DNA from: Brytella acorum
GTDB taxonomy: Bacteria; Pseudomonadota; Alphaproteobacteria; Acetobacterales; Acetobacteraceae
Direction of reading: 5' to 3'
Length of the DNA: 64,000 bases
Assembly: GCF_029309905.1 (NCBI RefSeq)
Contig: NZ_JARBJP010000001.1
Coordinates: 620,001-684,000 of the forward strand
The first letter of the stretch is position 1, and the number at the start of each line of letters is the position of its first letter. Shown in pieces: positions 5,572 through 12,479 of the stretch. The position numbers and the translations under genes are program-made. The notes under the pieces were generated by a model. That model was not told the origin of the DNA. It saw only the letters and a program-made list of their open reading frames with translations, and did not search any database.

Positions 5572-7494
5572 ATGAATAATTTTGGCCGGAATCTGGCACT
5601 CTGGGTAATCATCATCGTTCTGCTGGTCCTGCTTTTTACGGCCATGCAGCCCGGTGGTGGGACGCAGACGACACCCCAACTCGCCTATTCCGACTTCGTG
5701 TCGGATATCGATCAGGGGCGCGTTCGCTCCGTCGTGATCCAGGATCAGAACATCTCGGGTACCCTGACGGATGGCACGGCGTTCGATACGATCGCGCCCT
5801 CTGACCCGACACTGGTCGGTCGGCTGACCGATCATCATGTCGAGGTCAAGGTCAAGCCGCTCGAAGCCGAAGGTAGCCCGCTTCTGCGCTATATCTTCAA
5901 TTATCTGCCCATCCTCGCCATGCTCGGGTTCGGCGTGCTGTTTTTCCGTCAGATGCAGTCGGGCAGCGGTCGTGCGATGGGTTTCGGCAAATCGCGCGCG
6001 CGTCTGCTGACCGAAAAGCAGGGGCGTATCACGTTTGATGATGTCGCCGGCATCGATGAAGCGAAATCGGAACTGCAGGAAATCGTCGAGTTCCTGCGCG
6101 ATCCGCAGAAGTTTACCCGTCTTGGCGGCAAGATACCGAAAGGCGTCCTGCTCGTCGGCCCTCCCGGAACGGGTAAGACTCTTCTGGCGCGGGCCATCGC
6201 CGGTGAGGCGAACGTGCCGTTTTTCACGATTTCCGGTTCGGATTTCGTGGAGATGTTCGTGGGCGTCGGCGCATCGCGTGTGCGCGACATGTTCGAACAG
6301 GGCAAGAAGGCGGCGCCCTGCATCATCTTCATTGACGAGATCGACGCTGTCGGTCGTCATCGCGGCGCCGGTCTCGGTGGTGGGAATGACGAGCGTGAGC
6401 AGACGCTCAATCAGATGCTCGTCGAGATGGATGGGTTCGAGAGCAATGAGGGCGTGATCCTGATCGCGGCGACGAACCGCCCCGATGTGCTGGATCCGGC
6501 GCTGCTGCGTCCCGGTCGTTTCGATCGACAGGTCGTGGTGCCCAATCCGGACGTCGTAGGGCGCGAGCGCATTCTCCGGGTGCACATGCGCAAGGTGCCT
6601 CTGGCAAGCGATGTCGATCCGCGTGTGATTGCCCGTGGCACGCCAGGATTCTCAGGTGCGGATCTTGCCAATCTCGTCAATGAAGCCGCATTGCTTGCCG
6701 CCCGTCTCGGCAAGCGCACGGTGGCGATGCTCGAATTCGAAAACGCCAAAGACAAGGTGTTGATGGGAGCCGAGCGCCGCTCACTCGTCATGAGCGACGA
6801 CGAAAAGCGCATGACGGCGTATCATGAGGGTGGACATGCGCTTTGCGCGATCCTCACGCCGGGTTGCGATCCGGTCCACAAGGCGACGATCATTCCACGT
6901 GGCCGGGCGCTGGGACTGGTGATGAGCCTTCCGGAAGGGGACCGTTACTCCAAGAGCAAATCCAAATGCGTCGCCGAACTGGTGCTGGCGATGGGTGGAC
7001 GTGCGGCGGAAGAGATCGTGTTCGGCGCTGAGAACGTCTGCACGGGCGCTTCGGGCGATATCAAGATGGCGACCGATCAGGCGCGCCGGATGATTACCGA
7101 ATGGGGCATGAGTGATAAGCTCGGCATGATCGCTTATGGCGATAACGGCCAGGAGGTTTTTCTTGGCCACTCCGTGACGCAGAACAAGAATGTTTCGGAG
7201 CATACGGCCCGGGAGATCGATCGCGAGGTCAAGCAGCTGATCGATCGCGCTTACGATACCGCCCATTCTCTTCTGCTGGCTCATATCGACGAACTGCACC
7301 GTCTGGCTCATGCTCTTCTGGAGCATGAGACGCTATCGGGCGATGAGATCAGGCGGATTTTGCGCGGTGAGACGATCGAGCGCGTTGTGGTCGATGATCT
7401 CGCTCCCGAGAACCGGCGGGCTTCCGTGCCCACGACCCGCGATGACGCGGCCAAGGGGAACGGTGGTCTGGATCCATCTCCGGCGGTCGGGTGA
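5572..7494 (+). CDS. ftsH: ATP-dependent zinc metalloprotease FtsH
   Basis: FtsH is the membrane-anchored AAA+ protease that degrades misfolded membrane proteins and short-lived regulators. Two N-terminal membrane segments (about residues 8-25 and 106-124) flank a periplasmic domain. The Walker A motif GPPGTGKT starts near residue 196, Walker B is IIFIDEIDA, and the second region of homology contains [19 protein letters not shown]. The zinc site is HEGGH at residue 418. The length of 640 residues is typical. An AGAGATCGAG stretch precedes the ATG. It lies 88 bases after tilS and is followed by a strong terminator. Confidence 0.98.
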
Positions 7495-7530: not shown

Positions 7531-7611
7531 GTTTGTGAGTTACGCGTTCGCCATCCTTTCGCCTCTGCGGGGATGCGTATAGATAGCGGCATCGAATCGT
7601 GATTTGGAGTG

Positions 7612-8982
7612 ATGGCCGAGATGAATGCGAGCAGGCCCAGGAAGCTCTTTGGAACCGATGGTATTCGCGGCACCGCCAATACGGCGCCGATGACGGTGGA
7701 AATCGCGCAGCGTCTCGGTCAGGCGGTCGGTGTGCGTTTTCGCCAGTCCCAGCATCGTCAGCGGGTTATCCTGGGCAAAGATACCCGTCTTTCGGGTTAT
7801 ATGATCGAGTGCGCGCTGGTCTCTGGTTTTTTGTCCGCAGGGATGGATGTAACGCTCGTGGGGCCACTGCCGACACCCGCTGTGGCGATGCTGACGCGTT
7901 CTCTTCGGGCCGATCTCGGTATCATGATTTCCGCGTCACATAATCCGTATGAAGACAACGGAATCAAGATTTTCGGTCCAACGGGTTTCAAGCTCTCGGA
8001 TCATGACGAGCGCGAAATCGAAGCGCTGATGGAGACGGATCTTTCACCTCATCTCGCGGCGCCTGCCGATCTCGGACGTGCTTCCCGGCTTACCGATGCC
8101 GCCGGTCGTTACGTTGAAAATGCCAAGGCATCCTTCCCCCGTGGATTGCGGCTGGACGGTCTGAAGATCGTGATTGATTGCGCCAATGGTTCGGCTTACC
8201 GTGTCGCGCCGACAGCGCTTTGGGAATTGGGCGCCGAGGTGATCCGCATCGGTTGCGATCCGGACGGCGTTAACATCAATGCGGATTGTGGCTCGACGCG
8301 TCCGGAAAAGCTTTGCGCCGCGGTCGTTGAGCATAATGCCCAGCTCGGGATCGCGCTCGACGGTGATGCGGATCGCGTCATCATCAGTGACGAGCAGGGG
8401 CAGATCGTTGACGGCGATCAGATTCTCGGTCTGATCGCGCGTTCCTGGCAGCAACGCGGCGCTCTGAGTGGAGACGTGGTGGTTGCGACGGTGATGTCCA
8501 ATCTGGGGCTGGAGAAGCATCTCGCGAGTCAGGGGATCACCCTGTTGCGTACCGCGGTCGGGGATCGCTACGTTGTCGAGAAAATGCGTGAGATTGGCGC
8601 CAATCTGGGCGGCGAGCAGTCCGGACATGTGGTGTTGTCGGATTATGCGACGACTGGCGATGGACTGGTGGCCGCCTTGCAGGTTCTTGCCGTTCTGGTG
8701 GAATCCGGGCGCCCGGCAAGTGAAATTTGTCGCGTCTTCACGCCTTATCCGCAGTTGCTTCGCAACGTCCGTTATAGCGGATTGAGTCCGCTGGGAACGC
8801 CAGCGCTCGAGCGTGCAAGGCAAGATGTGGAGGCGCGGCTGGAAGGCCACGGTCGACTGGTGTTGCGTGCCAGCGGCACCGAACCTTTGATCCGGGTTAT
8901 GGTGGAGGCCAATGACGAGGCACTCGTTGAAAGCTGCGTCTCGTTCATGTGCGAGACCATTCAGGAATTGGCGGTCGTCTGA
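7612..8982 (+). CDS. glmM: Phosphoglucosamine mutase
   Basis: GlmM converts glucosamine 6-phosphate to glucosamine 1-phosphate on the route to UDP-GlcNAc. The start block [10 protein letters not shown], the active-site loop [12 protein letters not shown] (phosphoserine near residue 109), the metal loop DGDADRV and the C-terminal phosphate loop [12 protein letters not shown] are all present. The length of 456 residues is standard. The start is uncertain: in-frame GTG 7609, ATG 7612 and ATG 7621 follow a GGAG at 7605-7608, and 7612 or 7621 are about equally plausible. thiD follows after three bases and is probably cotranscribed. The order ftsH-glmM is common in Alphaproteobacteria. Confidence 0.96.
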
Positions 8983-8985
8983 ACG

Positions 8986-9813
8986 ATGCATGGGCGTGTG
9001 CTGATTGTCGCGGGCAGTGACTCGGGCGGCGGAGCCGGTATTCAGGCGGATATAAAAACCATAACCGCTCTCAACGGCTTTGCCATGACGGCCATTACGG
9101 CGCTGACCGCCCAGAATACGATTGGCGTTCAGGATATCTATCCGGTCCCGGCCGCCTTTGTGGCGCGACAGATGGCCTCTGTTTTTGATGATCTGGGTAT
9201 CGATGCCGTCAAGACGGGCATGCTTCCGTCTGCCGACATCATCACGGCGGTTTGCGATGTTCTGGATGACCGGACAGTGGCAGCCTGCGTCGTAGATCCC
9301 GTGATGGTGGCATCCAGCGGAGCGTCTTTGATCAAAGGCGACGCTGTGGCCGCGATGAAAGAGCGGCTTTTTCCTAAGGCTACCGTTTTGACCCCCAATA
9401 TCCCGGAAGCCGAAATCCTGACGGGCGCGCGCATCACGGATGTCGAGGACATGGTCGAGACCGCCCGGCAACTCCGACATGACGGTGCCGCCGCAGTCTT
9501 GGTGAAGGGTGGTCATTTGTCGGGGGGACGTCTGACCGATGTTCTGGCGACGGAGAATGGTATTCGACTGTTTGAAGGCGAACGGATCGAGTCACGAGCG
9601 ACCCACGGAACGGGATGTTCGCTGGCCAGTGCGATCGCGACCGGGCTGGCGCAGGGACAGCCGCTTGAGGCAGCCGTCGAGCGAGCGCGTCGTTTTGTCC
9701 GCTTGGCGATTATCCATGCCATCGAGCTTGGATCCGGGCCTTCGGGGCCGATGAACCATGCTGTTACGGTTACATCGGCCGGGGAATGTCGAGCGGAACC
9801 CCTTAAGCGGTGA
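8986..9813 (+). CDS. thiD: Hydroxymethylpyrimidine/phosphomethylpyrimidine kinase
   Basis: ThiD phosphorylates HMP and HMP-phosphate for thiamine synthesis. The 275-residue protein begins with the ribokinase-fold block VAGSDSGGGAGIQADIK and contains TALTAQNT, VVDPVMVASSGA and the anion-hole/catalytic block THGTGCSLASAIAT. It starts three bases after glmM. Its 3' end overlaps the convergent ctrA gene by 11 bases (9803-9813), so there is no room for a terminator between them. Confidence 0.95.
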   Translation: MHGRVLIVAGSDSGGGAGIQADIKTITALNGFAMTAITALTAQNTIGVQDIYPVPAAFVARQMASVFDDLGIDAVKTGMLPSADIITAVCDVLDDRTVAACVVDPVMVASSGASLIKGDAVAAMKERLFPKATVLTPNIPEAEILTGARITDVEDMVETARQLRHDGAAAVLVKGGHLSGGRLTDVLATENGIRLFEGERIESRATHGTGCSLASAIATGLAQGQPLEAAVERARRFVRLAIIHAIELGSGPSGPMNHAVTVTSAGECRAEPLKR

Positions 9814-10528
9814 GGCTTTCCGGTTCCGAGGGCATGACCCTTTCGACGCGCCCGGTCTGATCCTCACGCAGGATATAACCCCGTCCCCAGACCGTCGTGA
9901 TCAGATTGCCAGCGCCTTTTTGCTGGAGCTTCCGACGGAGCTTGCAGATGAAGACATCGATGATCTTCATTTCCGGCTCGTCAATGCCGCCATACAGATG
10001 GTTGAGAAACGCATCCTTGGTGAGAACGCTGCCCCGGCGCAGGACAAGCAGTTCGAGGATCGCGTATTCCTTGCCGGTGAGATGGACGGCATCCCCGCTG
10101 ACATAGGCCTGTTTCGCGTTAAGATCGATCTGTAGCGGGCCGATATGAACCTGCGCCGTGCTGAGGCCGCGTGAGCGGCGCAGAATGGCCTGTAGACGCG
10201 CAATCAGTTCAGCCGTGTCGAAAGGACGCGTCATGTAGTCGTCCGCGCCCACGGCGAACGCCTTGATCTTGGCCTGGGGCCGCGAAAGACTCGTCAGGAC
10301 AAGAATTGGCGTGTTGACGCGTGCCTGACGGACTTCCCGGATGACGCTGTAACCTTCGATATCGTCCAGCGTCAGCTCAAGGATGGCGACGTCGTAATCG
10401 TAATGCCGGAGAATTTCGACGGCTTCACGTCCCGAGGTTGTATGATCAACCGTGAAACCATTGTTACGCATGATCTGAAGAAGATTGGTGGCGGCACGGA
10501 GATCGTTATCGACGAGAAGAATGCGCAT
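9803..10528 (-). CDS. ctrA: CtrA-type response regulator with altered receiver
   Basis: The 241-residue OmpR-class protein matches CtrA, the alphaproteobacterial regulator of cell cycle and motility. The winged-helix half (about residues 125-232) keeps the CtrA hallmarks LTGKEYAILELL, FLNHLYGG, DVFICKLRRKL and TVWGRGY. The receiver does not keep the phosphorylation set. Residue 51, normally the phosphoacceptor Asp, is Glu (codon 10376-10378). The conserved Lys before Pro-Phe is Arg101 (10226-10228), and the second acidic-pocket residue is Asn8 (10505-10507); Asp7 and Thr79 remain. I infer a regulator that is constitutively active or controlled without phosphate. It is divergent from fliI, with CtrA-like sites between. 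Identity is firm from the DNA-binding half; the regulatory inference needs testing. Confidence 0.9.
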   Translation of the reverse strand: MRILLVDNDLRAATNLLQIMRNNGFTVDHTTSGREAVEILRHYDYDVAILELTLDDIEGYSVIREVRQARVNTPILVLTSLSRPQAKIKAFAVGADDYMTRPFDTAELIARLQAILRRSRGLSTAQVHIGPLQIDLNAKQAYVSGDAVHLTGKEYAILELLVLRRGSVLTKDAFLNHLYGGIDEPEMKIIDVFICKLRRKLQQKGAGNLITTVWGRGYILREDQTGRVERVMPSEPESLTA

Positions 10529-10630: not shown

Positions 10631-10645
10631 TTAACCCTCTGGTAA
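10631..10645 (+). promoter_or_regulatory. CtrA-box-like site before fliI
   Basis: TTAA-N7-GTAA matches the CtrA consensus TTAA-N7-TTAA at seven of eight specified positions. It ends 23 bases before the fliI ATG. Its position in the ctrA-fliI intergenic space fits direct control of flagellar export genes, autoregulation of ctrA, or both. Confidence 0.45.
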
Positions 10646-10668: not shown

Positions 10669-12060
10669 ATGGAAAATGCCGATCCCGTCTCTTCTGAAAT
10701 CGACCCTCTGGAGGCGCTTCTCATTGAGGTTCAGGCGTTCAGTCCCTGCGATATCATCGGAAATGTCCATGAAATATCAGGGCTTTGCGTCTCTGTTCGC
10801 GGGTTGAACGCCTTCGTGACCATTGGCGACCGTGTAACGCTCAACCCGAGTGGAGGAGAGCCTGTTCGCGCGGAGGTTGTGGGATTTAAGGACGACGAGG
10901 CGCGCCTGATGACGTTTAGCACGCTGGATGGTGTCGGGCCGGGCACGGAAGCTGTTTTCCCGTTTCGCAAGGAACGCGGTACAAGATCACTGAACGTCGA
11001 TGACACATGGTTGGGACGGGTCATCGACCCGCTGGGCAAACCGATTGACGGGCGCGGCCTGCTCGTGCCCGGGCTGTATCCGAAGCCTCTGAGGGCGGCG
11101 CCGCCCTTGGCGACGCAGCGTGCGAGGCTTGGGCCGCGCATCAGTCTTGGAGTACGCGCGCTGGACGTTTTTACGACCTGTCGCGAAGGACAGCGGCTTG
11201 GACTTTTCGCGGGATCCGGCGTTGGAAAATCAACATTGCTTTCAATGCTCGCACGGCAGGCCGATTGCGATGTCGCCGTGATCGCGCTTGTTGGAGAACG
11301 AGGACGTGAAGTTCGCGAGTTCATCGAAGACGATCTGGGGCCTGAGGGACTGAAGCGAAGCGTTGTCGTGATCGCCACGTCGGATACGCCACCGCTTATG
11401 CGCCGCGAGGCGCCTTACGCGGCGATGACGATTGCCGAATATTTTCGCGATCAGGGAAAATCCGTCCTTCTCCTGATGGACAGCGTCACGCGTTTTTGTC
11501 TCGCATTGCGCGAAATCGGTCTATCCGTGGGTGAGGCTCCCGCGACCAGGGGATATCCGCCTTCGGTTTTTGCTGAACTTCCGATGCTGCTGGAACGTGC
11601 TGGACCGGGCGCCGTGATGCCGGAGACGGGAAAAGCCGGTTTCATCACGGCGTTGTTTACAGTTCTCGTCGAGGGAGATGATACAAACGAGCCCGTCTCG
11701 GACGCCGTGCGCGGGATTCTGGACGGACACGTGGTGATGGATCGGCGTATCGCCGAAGAAGGGCGTTATCCGGCGATAGACGTGTTGCGGTCGCTCTCCC
11801 GTGCGGTGCCAGGATGTAACTCCGCGCAGGAAAATGCCCTGACCAGACGAGCGCGGGCTTTGATGGCCAGCTATGAGGGTATGATCGATATGATTCGCCT
11901 GGGCGCCTACAAGCAGGGAACAGATCCGTCGGTCGATGAAGCCATACGTTTGATGCCCGGTCTTACGGCACTTCTCAGCCAGGAGAAAACGGAGGCGTCG
12001 ACGCTTGTGGAAGGATTTGCAAAACTGGGCGCTTTATTCGGTGAGGAACTGCCGTTGTGA
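10669..12060 (+). CDS. fliI: Flagellar type III export ATPase FliI
   Basis: FliI is the ATPase that helps feed flagellar substrates into the export gate. The 463-residue protein has the F1-like Walker A block AGSGVGKSTLLSML near residues 181-194, ALVGERGREVREF, the Walker B segment VLLLMDSVTRFC and the ATRGYPPSVF motif characteristic of FliI/SctN ATPases. This separates it from F1 beta subunits. It shares four bases (GTGA) with fliJ. No other flagellar genes are in the window. The divergent ctrA gene and CtrA-like sites suggest where it is regulated. Confidence 0.95.
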   Translation: MENADPVSSEIDPLEALLIEVQAFSPCDIIGNVHEISGLCVSVRGLNAFVTIGDRVTLNPSGGEPVRAEVVGFKDDEARLMTFSTLDGVGPGTEAVFPFRKERGTRSLNVDDTWLGRVIDPLGKPIDGRGLLVPGLYPKPLRAAPPLATQRARLGPRISLGVRALDVFTTCREGQRLGLFAGSGVGKSTLLSMLARQADCDVAVIALVGERGREVREFIEDDLGPEGLKRSVVVIATSDTPPLMRREAPYAAMTIAEYFRDQGKSVLLLMDSVTRFCLALREIGLSVGEAPATRGYPPSVFAELPMLLERAGPGAVMPETGKAGFITALFTVLVEGDDTNEPVSDAVRGILDGHVVMDRRIAEEGRYPAIDVLRSLSRAVPGCNSAQENALTRRARALMASYEGMIDMIRLGAYKQGTDPSVDEAIRLMPGLTALLSQEKTEASTLVEGFAKLGALFGEELPL

Positions 12061-12479
12061 CACGTTCTCCGCTACAGACGCTTCTGAGGTTGCGTCGACA
12101 GGAACAGGAAGAAGCGGAGCGGGGACTGGCTGCCGCGATCGCACGGGAACGGGAGGCGAGTGAAGCCGTCCGCCATGCCGAGCGATATTTCCTCGAACAG
12201 GAAAATTTTGTTTCGAGCCCAGAATGTGACGATCTGGCTGTCGAGGCATTTGCCCGCTGGATACCGCGCGGTCGCGCGGCGATCCAGGCTGCACAAACCG
12301 AGGAAGAGCGGGCGGGTCTGGATCGCGCTGTCGCACAGGCTGCCATGATCAGTGCGCGCGCAGCATTCAAGGCGGTCGAGACGCTCGACGCACGACGTCA
12401 GAAGGAAGCGCGTCTGGAAGCCCAGAGGCGTGAGCAGAACGAGAACGACGATCTGGCGAACAGGCCGCCGCCCTTCTGA
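12057..12479 (+). CDS. fliJ: FliJ-like flagellar export chaperone
   Basis: The 140-residue protein is almost entirely charged helix (Glu/Arg/Ala/Gln rich) and is predicted to form an antiparallel coiled coil, as in FliJ, which sits in the FliI hexamer and escorts export chaperones. The N-terminal SPLQTLLRLRRQEQEEAE fits the weakly conserved FliJ start. The main evidence is its position: the GTG start overlaps the fliI stop, so the two are translationally coupled. Sequence conservation in FliJ is low, so the call rests on size, helix pattern and context. Confidence 0.75.
   Translation: MTRSPLQTLLRLRRQEQEEAERGLAAAIAREREASEAVRHAERYFLEQENFVSSPECDDLAVEAFARWIPRGRAAIQAAQTEEERAGLDRAVAQAAMISARAAFKAVETLDARRQKEARLEAQRREQNENDDLANRPPPF

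Follow-up and report, generated by a model that had tools for sequence, protein, structure and literature searches.

Within the window, a stretch of 64,000 nucleotides from Brytella acorum (contig NZ_JARBJP010000001.1, positions 620,001 to 684,000), the gene at 9803..10528 on the minus strand runs from ATG to TAA and specifies a 241 amino acid CtrA orthologue, the only CtrA of the genome. Pfam recognises a Response_reg domain at residues 3–112 (79.8 bits) and a Trans_reg_C domain at residues 146–220, both above cut-off; the top NCBIfam model is NF045991 (CtrA) with 312.5 bits against 175 for the runner-up, a score that the curated cut-off of 350 exceeds. The receiver half (residues 1–118; 10175..10528, minus strand) is altered at its Mg2+ ligand, its phosphoacceptor aspartate and its lysine. 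Codon 8 is AAC (Asn; 10505..10507), codon 51 is GAG (Glu; 10376..10378) and codon 101 is CGT (Arg; 10226..10228), all on the minus strand, where intact CtrA has Asp, the phosphoacceptor Asp and Lys, respectively. These codons confirm the three substitutions listed in the initial annotation, which had described Asn8 as replacing one acidic-pocket residue. The substitution is real and the description understates it: in an alignment to solved regulators, residue 8 aligns with the second of the paired acidic residues in DrrD and PrrA, a position which we take to be a direct Mg2+ ligand, so the change is the graver one. Since the receiver is recognised and yet carries Glu51 in place of the phosphoacceptor, it is a pseudo-receiver. 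The AF2 model of the protein (mean pLDDT 82.6, pTM 0.63, tail unstructured) has ten-residue pLDDT means of 83–95 across residues 1–110, and the receiver is accordingly predicted to fold normally. The winged-helix DNA-binding core (residues 146–221; 9866..10093, minus strand) is strongly conserved.

The genome comprises 3.32 Mb in 42 contigs, is 99.8% complete and contains 23 receiver matches. A second, intact CtrA, which the annotation had said would refute its reading, was searched for in this genome and none is present; the other regulators are at most 36% identical to the window protein.

Divergent from ctrA lies a gene for a fliI-type export ATPase (10669..12060, plus strand), an arrangement that relatives share whether or not they have the relay, and adjoining it is fliJ (12057..12479, plus strand). 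On its other side ctrA meets a thiD-type kinase gene (8986..9813, plus strand), and the stop ends of the two genes overlap tail to tail by 11 bases (9803–9813). Beyond it are a glmM-type mutase gene (7609–8982) and an ftsH-like ORF (5572–7494). Pfam families were seen for the thiD- and glmM-type products, and all three gene names are our presumptive assignments. These genes occupy the side of ctrA on which three inspected relay-bearing relatives (G003, G126 and G021) have a chpT-cheA-cheW-cheY-cheB-cheR run leading to ctrA, again with fliI divergent. The three were picked for having chpT and ctrA on one contig, and the Pfam scan covered the genes of G003 and the ChpT of G021. In the relay-bearing Acetobacteraceae stretches L273 (6023–12305), L274 and L276, chpT is the first gene of the che run adjoining ctrA, and lists inspected by eye place chpT less than 10 kb from ctrA in at least 30 genomes. 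In B. acorum the loss of chpT coincides with loss of the che run from the ctrA locus. The ctrA-fliI pair with thiD-glmM-ftsH as the other neighbour is kept in the window, in Acidomonas, in genome G025 and in a Gluconobacter. Unlike the window, Acidomonas and Gluconobacter, the stretch from Asaia krungthepensis (L047, 1–4900) has no fliI match adjoining ctrA.

A candidate CtrA box, TTAACCCTCTGGTAA (10631..10645, plus strand), lies 23 bases 5' of fliI and has one mismatch to TTAA-N7-TTAA, which we take to be the consensus. In the same gap a perfect box is found in G025 and a box with one mismatch in one of the three relay-bearing relatives; between ctrA and fliI there is none in Acidomonas and none in the other two. 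One-mismatch boxes occur elsewhere in the inspected stretches too. Genome-wide, B. acorum has 14 boxes as compared to 25 for the reversed pattern, and with no enrichment such boxes were rejected as proof of a regulon. The earlier suggestion that the neighbouring flagellar export genes are a plausible target is correct as regards adjacency, which is real; the box is imperfect and has no genome-wide excess behind it. CtrA is unlikely to serve motility alone, since 22 of 72 genomes without a clear ChpT match keep CtrA without flhB above cut-off.

The relay proteins were sought throughout the B. acorum genome. It contains no PF10090 (ChpT) match, a search in which the Caulobacter control was detected, and no match to a family profile built from seven Acetobacteraceae ChpTs. 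This profile detects all eight control genomes (E 5e-44 or better), none of which contributed a row to it. In 72 genomes chosen for having no clear PF10090 match, it gave either no match or E ≥1.8e-10 in every case; weak matches at 1e-3 occur in 46 of the 72, all inside frames of at least 385 aa, which suggests kinases. ChpT looks to be really gone from the acetic-acid-bacterial lineage.

The Caulobacter CckA model was discarded as a presence test because none of 299 Acetobacteraceae genomes reaches its cut-off, and the CckA of the family itself was used as query instead. Acetobacteraceae CckA was taken to be the kinase of about 550 aa with PAS, HisKA, HATPase and receiver domains, which scores highest with the CckA models though below their cut-offs; four candidates per genome were scored against a threshold set by us. 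In five of eight control genomes a cckA match is found no more than 100 bases from flhB, and where several relatives have cckA, B. acorum has flhB followed directly by recA (L283, 1489–3763). No kinase grouping with Acetobacteraceae CckA was found in B. acorum among the longer receiver-bearing proteins scanned, four of the 41 candidates having been scored, and the best B. acorum kinase matches CckA at 7.6e-80, the level of a paralogue. The receiver-bearing kinases of the genome are those of L015, L017, L016/L021 and L022, with no further hybrid kinases among the longer receiver-bearing proteins. The L017 protein was rejected as CckA, being closer to CckA paralogues (43–47% identity to those of G078 and G063 and 42% to a third) than to CckA (37–39% to four). 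The L016/L021 protein was set aside as about equally distant from everything compared, and that of L022, judged by eye, is a phytochrome-like kinase with a C-terminal receiver. The annotation had proposed that this CtrA is uncoupled from a CckA-ChpT relay and that the presence of cckA, chpT and cpdR be checked. Neither cckA nor chpT was found, and the uncoupling is supported by a 99.8% complete genome with no ChpT, no kinase grouping with CckA and no second CtrA. For CpdR the result is less clear-cut: the two stand-alone receivers scanned reach at best 48 bits against a cut-off of 180, with a Brucella model that may not fit the CpdR of Acetobacteraceae.

Whether the altered residues are lineage-wide was a question the annotation had raised. 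A scan of contigs with peptides of the window CtrA yielded 64 loci; as the queries derive from the window protein, divergent genera would escape, and Acetobacter, Komagataeibacter and Gluconacetobacter are absent from the named loci. In four of the 64 the frame is cut or broken and residue 51 unreadable. Among the named acetic-acid-bacterial genera reached, Glu51 is found in 43 loci, Ala51 in three and Asp8 in none. Glu51 occurs in all 21 Gluconobacter, three Neokomagataea and two Saccharibacter loci, in five of eight Bombella and six of eight Asaia loci (the remaining two Asaia being unreadable there), and also in Acidomonas, Tanticharoenia, Swaminathania and three further Acetobacteraceae loci. 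The Ala51 loci belong to two Bombella and Parasaccharibacter. Plastoroseomonas has Gly51 and one alphaproteobacterial MAG Ser51. Asp51 is present in 12 of the 64 loci, including L087, which is not a CtrA, and eight loci from MAGs catalogued under Acetobacteraceae, Rhodospirillales, Proteobacteria or Acidobacteria, with CtrAs 57–63% identical; these eight deeper relatives retain Asp8, Asp51 and Lys101. Residue 8 is Ser, Asn or Thr throughout the Glu51 and Ala51 rows of the named scan. Lys101 is mostly kept, and Arg101 among the named Glu51 loci occurs only in one Gluconobacter and in Acidomonas; Acidomonas methanolica has the closest named relative of the window CtrA (82% identity). On the loci read, loss of residues 8 and 51 is thus lineage-wide across the named genera scanned, and Arg101 is local and no part of a package with them. 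The three changes that the annotation had grouped together consequently come apart: residues 8 and 51 hold across the lineage, and Arg101 is rare among Glu51 loci.

The association between relay genes and intact CtrA was followed across 299 Acetobacteraceae genomes, of which 266 show CtrA at 1e-40; ChpT is matched in 185 at 1e-3 and in 174 above the Pfam cut-off. ChpT was called clear in 167, seven fewer than pass the cut-off, and the 18 genomes with E between 1e-4 and 1e-3 were scored as lacking it; 12 of these 18 are in the table, six with intact and six with altered CtrA. One CtrA was read per genome, second CtrA-like copies being left out, and "intact" was defined as Asp or Glu at 8, Asp51 and Lys101. 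CtrA was read in 243 genomes. Excluded were eight in which ctrA is truncated, frameshifted or at the end of a contig (G085, G246, G280, G032, G108, G216, G274 and G062), and a further 48 lie outside the table: nine with a known ctrA place, G233, G251, 15 without clear ChpT and with no CtrA match better than about 1e-37, 17 without a match at 1e-42, and five with weak matches only. The first genome batches were chosen by closeness to the window CtrA and lack of ChpT, and relay-bearing genomes were added later; in the clear ChpT bearers so added, CtrA is intact wherever the site is readable.

CtrA is intact in 153 of the 243 genomes and altered in 90. ChpT or CckA was found with 141 of the 153 intact CtrAs versus two of the 90 altered ones. 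Asp51 is present in 142 of the 143 genomes that have a relay gene; the 100 without one show Glu in 52, Asp in 27, Arg in 11, Ala in four, His in three, and Asn, Gly or Ser in one each. Because the rows are related, a raw Fisher test (5.5e-50) was dropped as evidence of significance. On the CtrA tree, which has long branches and many open forks, the intact state changes 11 times and relay presence 14 times. Supported branches provide six independent pairs, in about two of which the relay differs the same way and in about four of which there is no difference (sign test, p 0.5). Most of the co-loss of relay and intact site goes back to a single old event, with a few further ones besides. Twelve genomes have an intact CtrA with no relay detected, several of them being fragmented assemblies. 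The two altered CtrAs accompanied by a relay gene are those of G132 (L213/L278; Glu51 with Asp8 and Lys101 kept, ChpT) and G102 (L246; Asn8, ChpT and CckA). Each of these genomes has a second CtrA-like match, and it may be that a duplicated copy was the first to be released.

Retention was scored at positions where 154 canonical CtrAs show 90% conservation or more, excluding the class-defining residues 8, 51 and 101. The 43 Glu51 CtrAs retain 86% of the receiver positions and 94% of the DNA-binding core; by region the figures are 87% (b1-a1), 74% (b2-a2), 77% (b3), 92% (a3-b4) and 92% (a4-b5-a5). When the three residues are counted they become 76, 74, 66, 92 and 91%, with 94% for the DNA-binding core; dropping them thus narrows the contrast between pocket and dimer face (b1-a1 from 0.76 to 0.87 and b3 from 0.66 to 0.77, against 0.92 for a4-b5-a5). 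The window CtrA itself retains 86% of the receiver and 96% of the DNA-binding core positions, in keeping with the earlier observation that its DNA-binding half has the hallmarks of CtrA. Twelve CtrAs from genera g69 and g96 are eroded, keeping 50% of the receiver (44–50% in four regions and 82% in b2-a2) and 86% of the DNA-binding core. Their receivers are 73–80% identical within a genus, from which it follows that something constrains them, and this conservation of remodelled sequence hints at a new function. The proteins concerned (L163, L165–L168, L171–L175, L347 and L348) have Arg or His at 51, lack Lys101 and possess a near-normal DNA-binding half.

Among the 70 altered CtrAs that are not eroded, residue 51 is acidic in 63, residue 101 basic in 66 and residue 79 Ser or Thr in 68; residue 8 is acidic in only four, and nine different residue types occur there. 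Counted on the tree for the altered CtrAs, there are 23 changes at residue 8 and 12 at residue 51, with medians of 12 for receiver and 2 for DNA-binding positions. Intact CtrAs have corresponding medians of 13 and 2.5, with only 0–1 changes at residues 8, 51 and 101. By these counts the receiver as a whole evolves no faster in the 70 altered CtrAs than in intact ones, although residues 8, 51 and 101 do evolve faster. The retained charge at 51 and 101 was considered as a sign of selection for a salt bridge, an idea abandoned since the change count leaves position 51 unremarkable.

CtrA is a textbook cell-cycle regulator under phosphorelay control. The window protein shares with canonical CtrA its best family model, the conserved winged helix, the flagellar neighbour and single copy; it departs from the CckA-ChpT-CtrA phosphorelay in its altered phosphoacceptor, Mg2+ ligand and lysine, and in that ChpT and CckA were not found. 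Its three changes (DD2 to Asn, D to Glu and K to Arg) are named as common among pseudo-receivers in the available part of one survey (PMC12632262). Unlike the cases treated in the accessible portions of that paper and of PMC4395418, neither of which mentions CtrA in its main text, the protein converted here is orthologous to a well-known output of a phosphorelay, with relatives at several stages. ChxR of Chlamydia and HP1043 of Helicobacter are OmpR/PhoB-type regulators like CtrA for which, according to the available excerpts, phosphorylation is unneeded (PMC3960148, PMC8345958); HP1043 is described there as having a degenerate receiver, and ChxR, like the window CtrA, has Glu at the phosphosite (PMC4395418). 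They differ in not being CtrA and in that their activity has been demonstrated, the window CtrA being known here from its sequence.

The accessible parts of Brilli 2010 (PMC2877005) and Tomasch 2021 (PMC8116508) report many ctrA-bearing Rhodospirillales without chpT, the latter finding cckA and divL too in only 27–36%, and leave undecided whether homologues were missed or replaced. Neither mentions the state of the CtrA phosphosite in those parts, and among the literature matches listed, judged by titles and the beginnings of abstracts, no report describes phosphosite loss from CtrA in acetic acid bacteria or Rhodospirillales. Brilli 2010 gives cckA as present in Rhodospirillales that lack chpT (PMC2877005, in the part available), unlike the B. 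acorum result; as a guess, its cckA was perhaps drawn from CckA paralogues. The present findings bear on the published difficulty of locating chpT and cckA in Rhodospirillales. Industrially used, easily grown bacteria that have kept CtrA, and have seemingly lost both relay and phosphosite, constitute a natural experiment on which functions of CtrA never needed phosphorylation, how a switchless response regulator is controlled and in what order a receiver decays.

In B. acorum three receiver residues of CtrA are altered, the relay genes are not found and the DNA-binding half is kept. The protein is probably a phosphorylation-independent pseudo-receiver CtrA, CtrA by descent, which would have lost its relay and be controlled by amount. 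The acetic-acid-bacterial lineage would have lost ChpT and, as far as is visible, CckA, and the phosphorylation chemistry of the receiver would have gone along with the relay. Without the Mg2+ ligand and Asp51, normal aspartyl phosphorylation is not expected; another phosphodonor may exist, B. acorum having other kinases. DNA binding by what remains of CtrA is probably independent of phosphorylation. The Glu51 class, which includes the window protein, has kept the dimer face and the DNA-binding half, so that CtrA probably dimerises and binds unaided there; Glu51 and Lys/Arg101 may help to keep it in an active-like conformation. We infer that such a CtrA is constitutively active and that control lies in its synthesis or degradation. 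Erosion of most of the receiver would have followed in some genera.

A sequencing error, a pseudogene or a paralogue with the true CtrA elsewhere is a most improbable source of these observations. Glu51 in 43 of 64 loci makes a sequencing error unlikely, the frame is open with its DNA-binding half conserved and the ctrA-fliI arrangement kept, and the genome has one CtrA, far from any other regulator at ≤36% identity. It is conceivable, if doubtful, that Glu51 is a selected phosphomimic, a D-to-E change having locked CtrA on first and thereby made CckA and ChpT dispensable. The largely acidic position 51 and basic position 101 beside a residue 8 acidic in only four of 70, the kept dimer face of the Glu51 class, and G132, with Glu51, ChpT, Asp8 and Lys101 together, all suit this reading. 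D51E of Rhodobacter capsulatus CtrA is called phosphomimetic in the part of PMC6363796 available, and receivers without the Asp most often have Glu in its place according to the accessible portion of PMC4395418, which also states that Asp-to-Glu changes often fail to activate alone. Position 51, however, changes no more often than the receiver median, and 16 of the 70 keep Asp51 with an altered Mg2+ ligand. The ligand (altered in 66 of 70) is thus a commoner loss than Asp51 (54 of 70). Ala, His, Gly and Arg are found at residue 51 in some relatives, moreover, and two genera have lost the pocket entirely.

The receiver may instead be merely decaying, with residue 51 irrelevant and CtrA acting through the basal affinity of its unphosphorylated form, a reading we regard with about as much reserve as the last. 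It agrees with the eroded genera, in which half of the conserved receiver positions remain as against 86% of the DNA-binding ones. It also agrees with a model for R. capsulatus, in the available part of PMC6363796, where gafA is activated by CtrA in its unphosphorylated state, and with the increase in gene transfer on overexpression of D51A. Simple decay fits poorly with an a4-b5-a5 face 92% kept in the Glu51 class, with Ser/Thr79 in 68 of the 70, and with eroded receivers that are still 73–80% identical within a genus. That constraint within genera, together with the predicted normal fold of the window receiver and the other hybrid kinases of B. acorum, would accord with control of the receiver by another kinase or partner (a small ligand, a protein or another modification). 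We consider this unlikely, as both residues that aspartyl phosphorylation relies on, the Mg2+ ligand and Asp51, are altered and no candidate partner was found in this analysis. Loss of the relay with control by amount is the reading retained here. We give an even chance to a fuller account, in which the relay was deleted, CtrA was kept phosphorylation-free, and living genera record the steps around the same DNA-binding half, even where flagella are gone. The recorded steps would run from loss of the Mg2+ ligand, through replacement of Asp by Glu in a receiver that keeps its dimer face, to a remodelled receiver that may serve a new partner or ligand.

No flhB above cut-off was detected in four tested genomes of genus g41. 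The CtrAs of this genus (L152, L156, L157, L159, L162, L169 and L170, from genomes of 2.0–2.6 Mb) form another eroded class, with an altered acidic pair and without Lys101.
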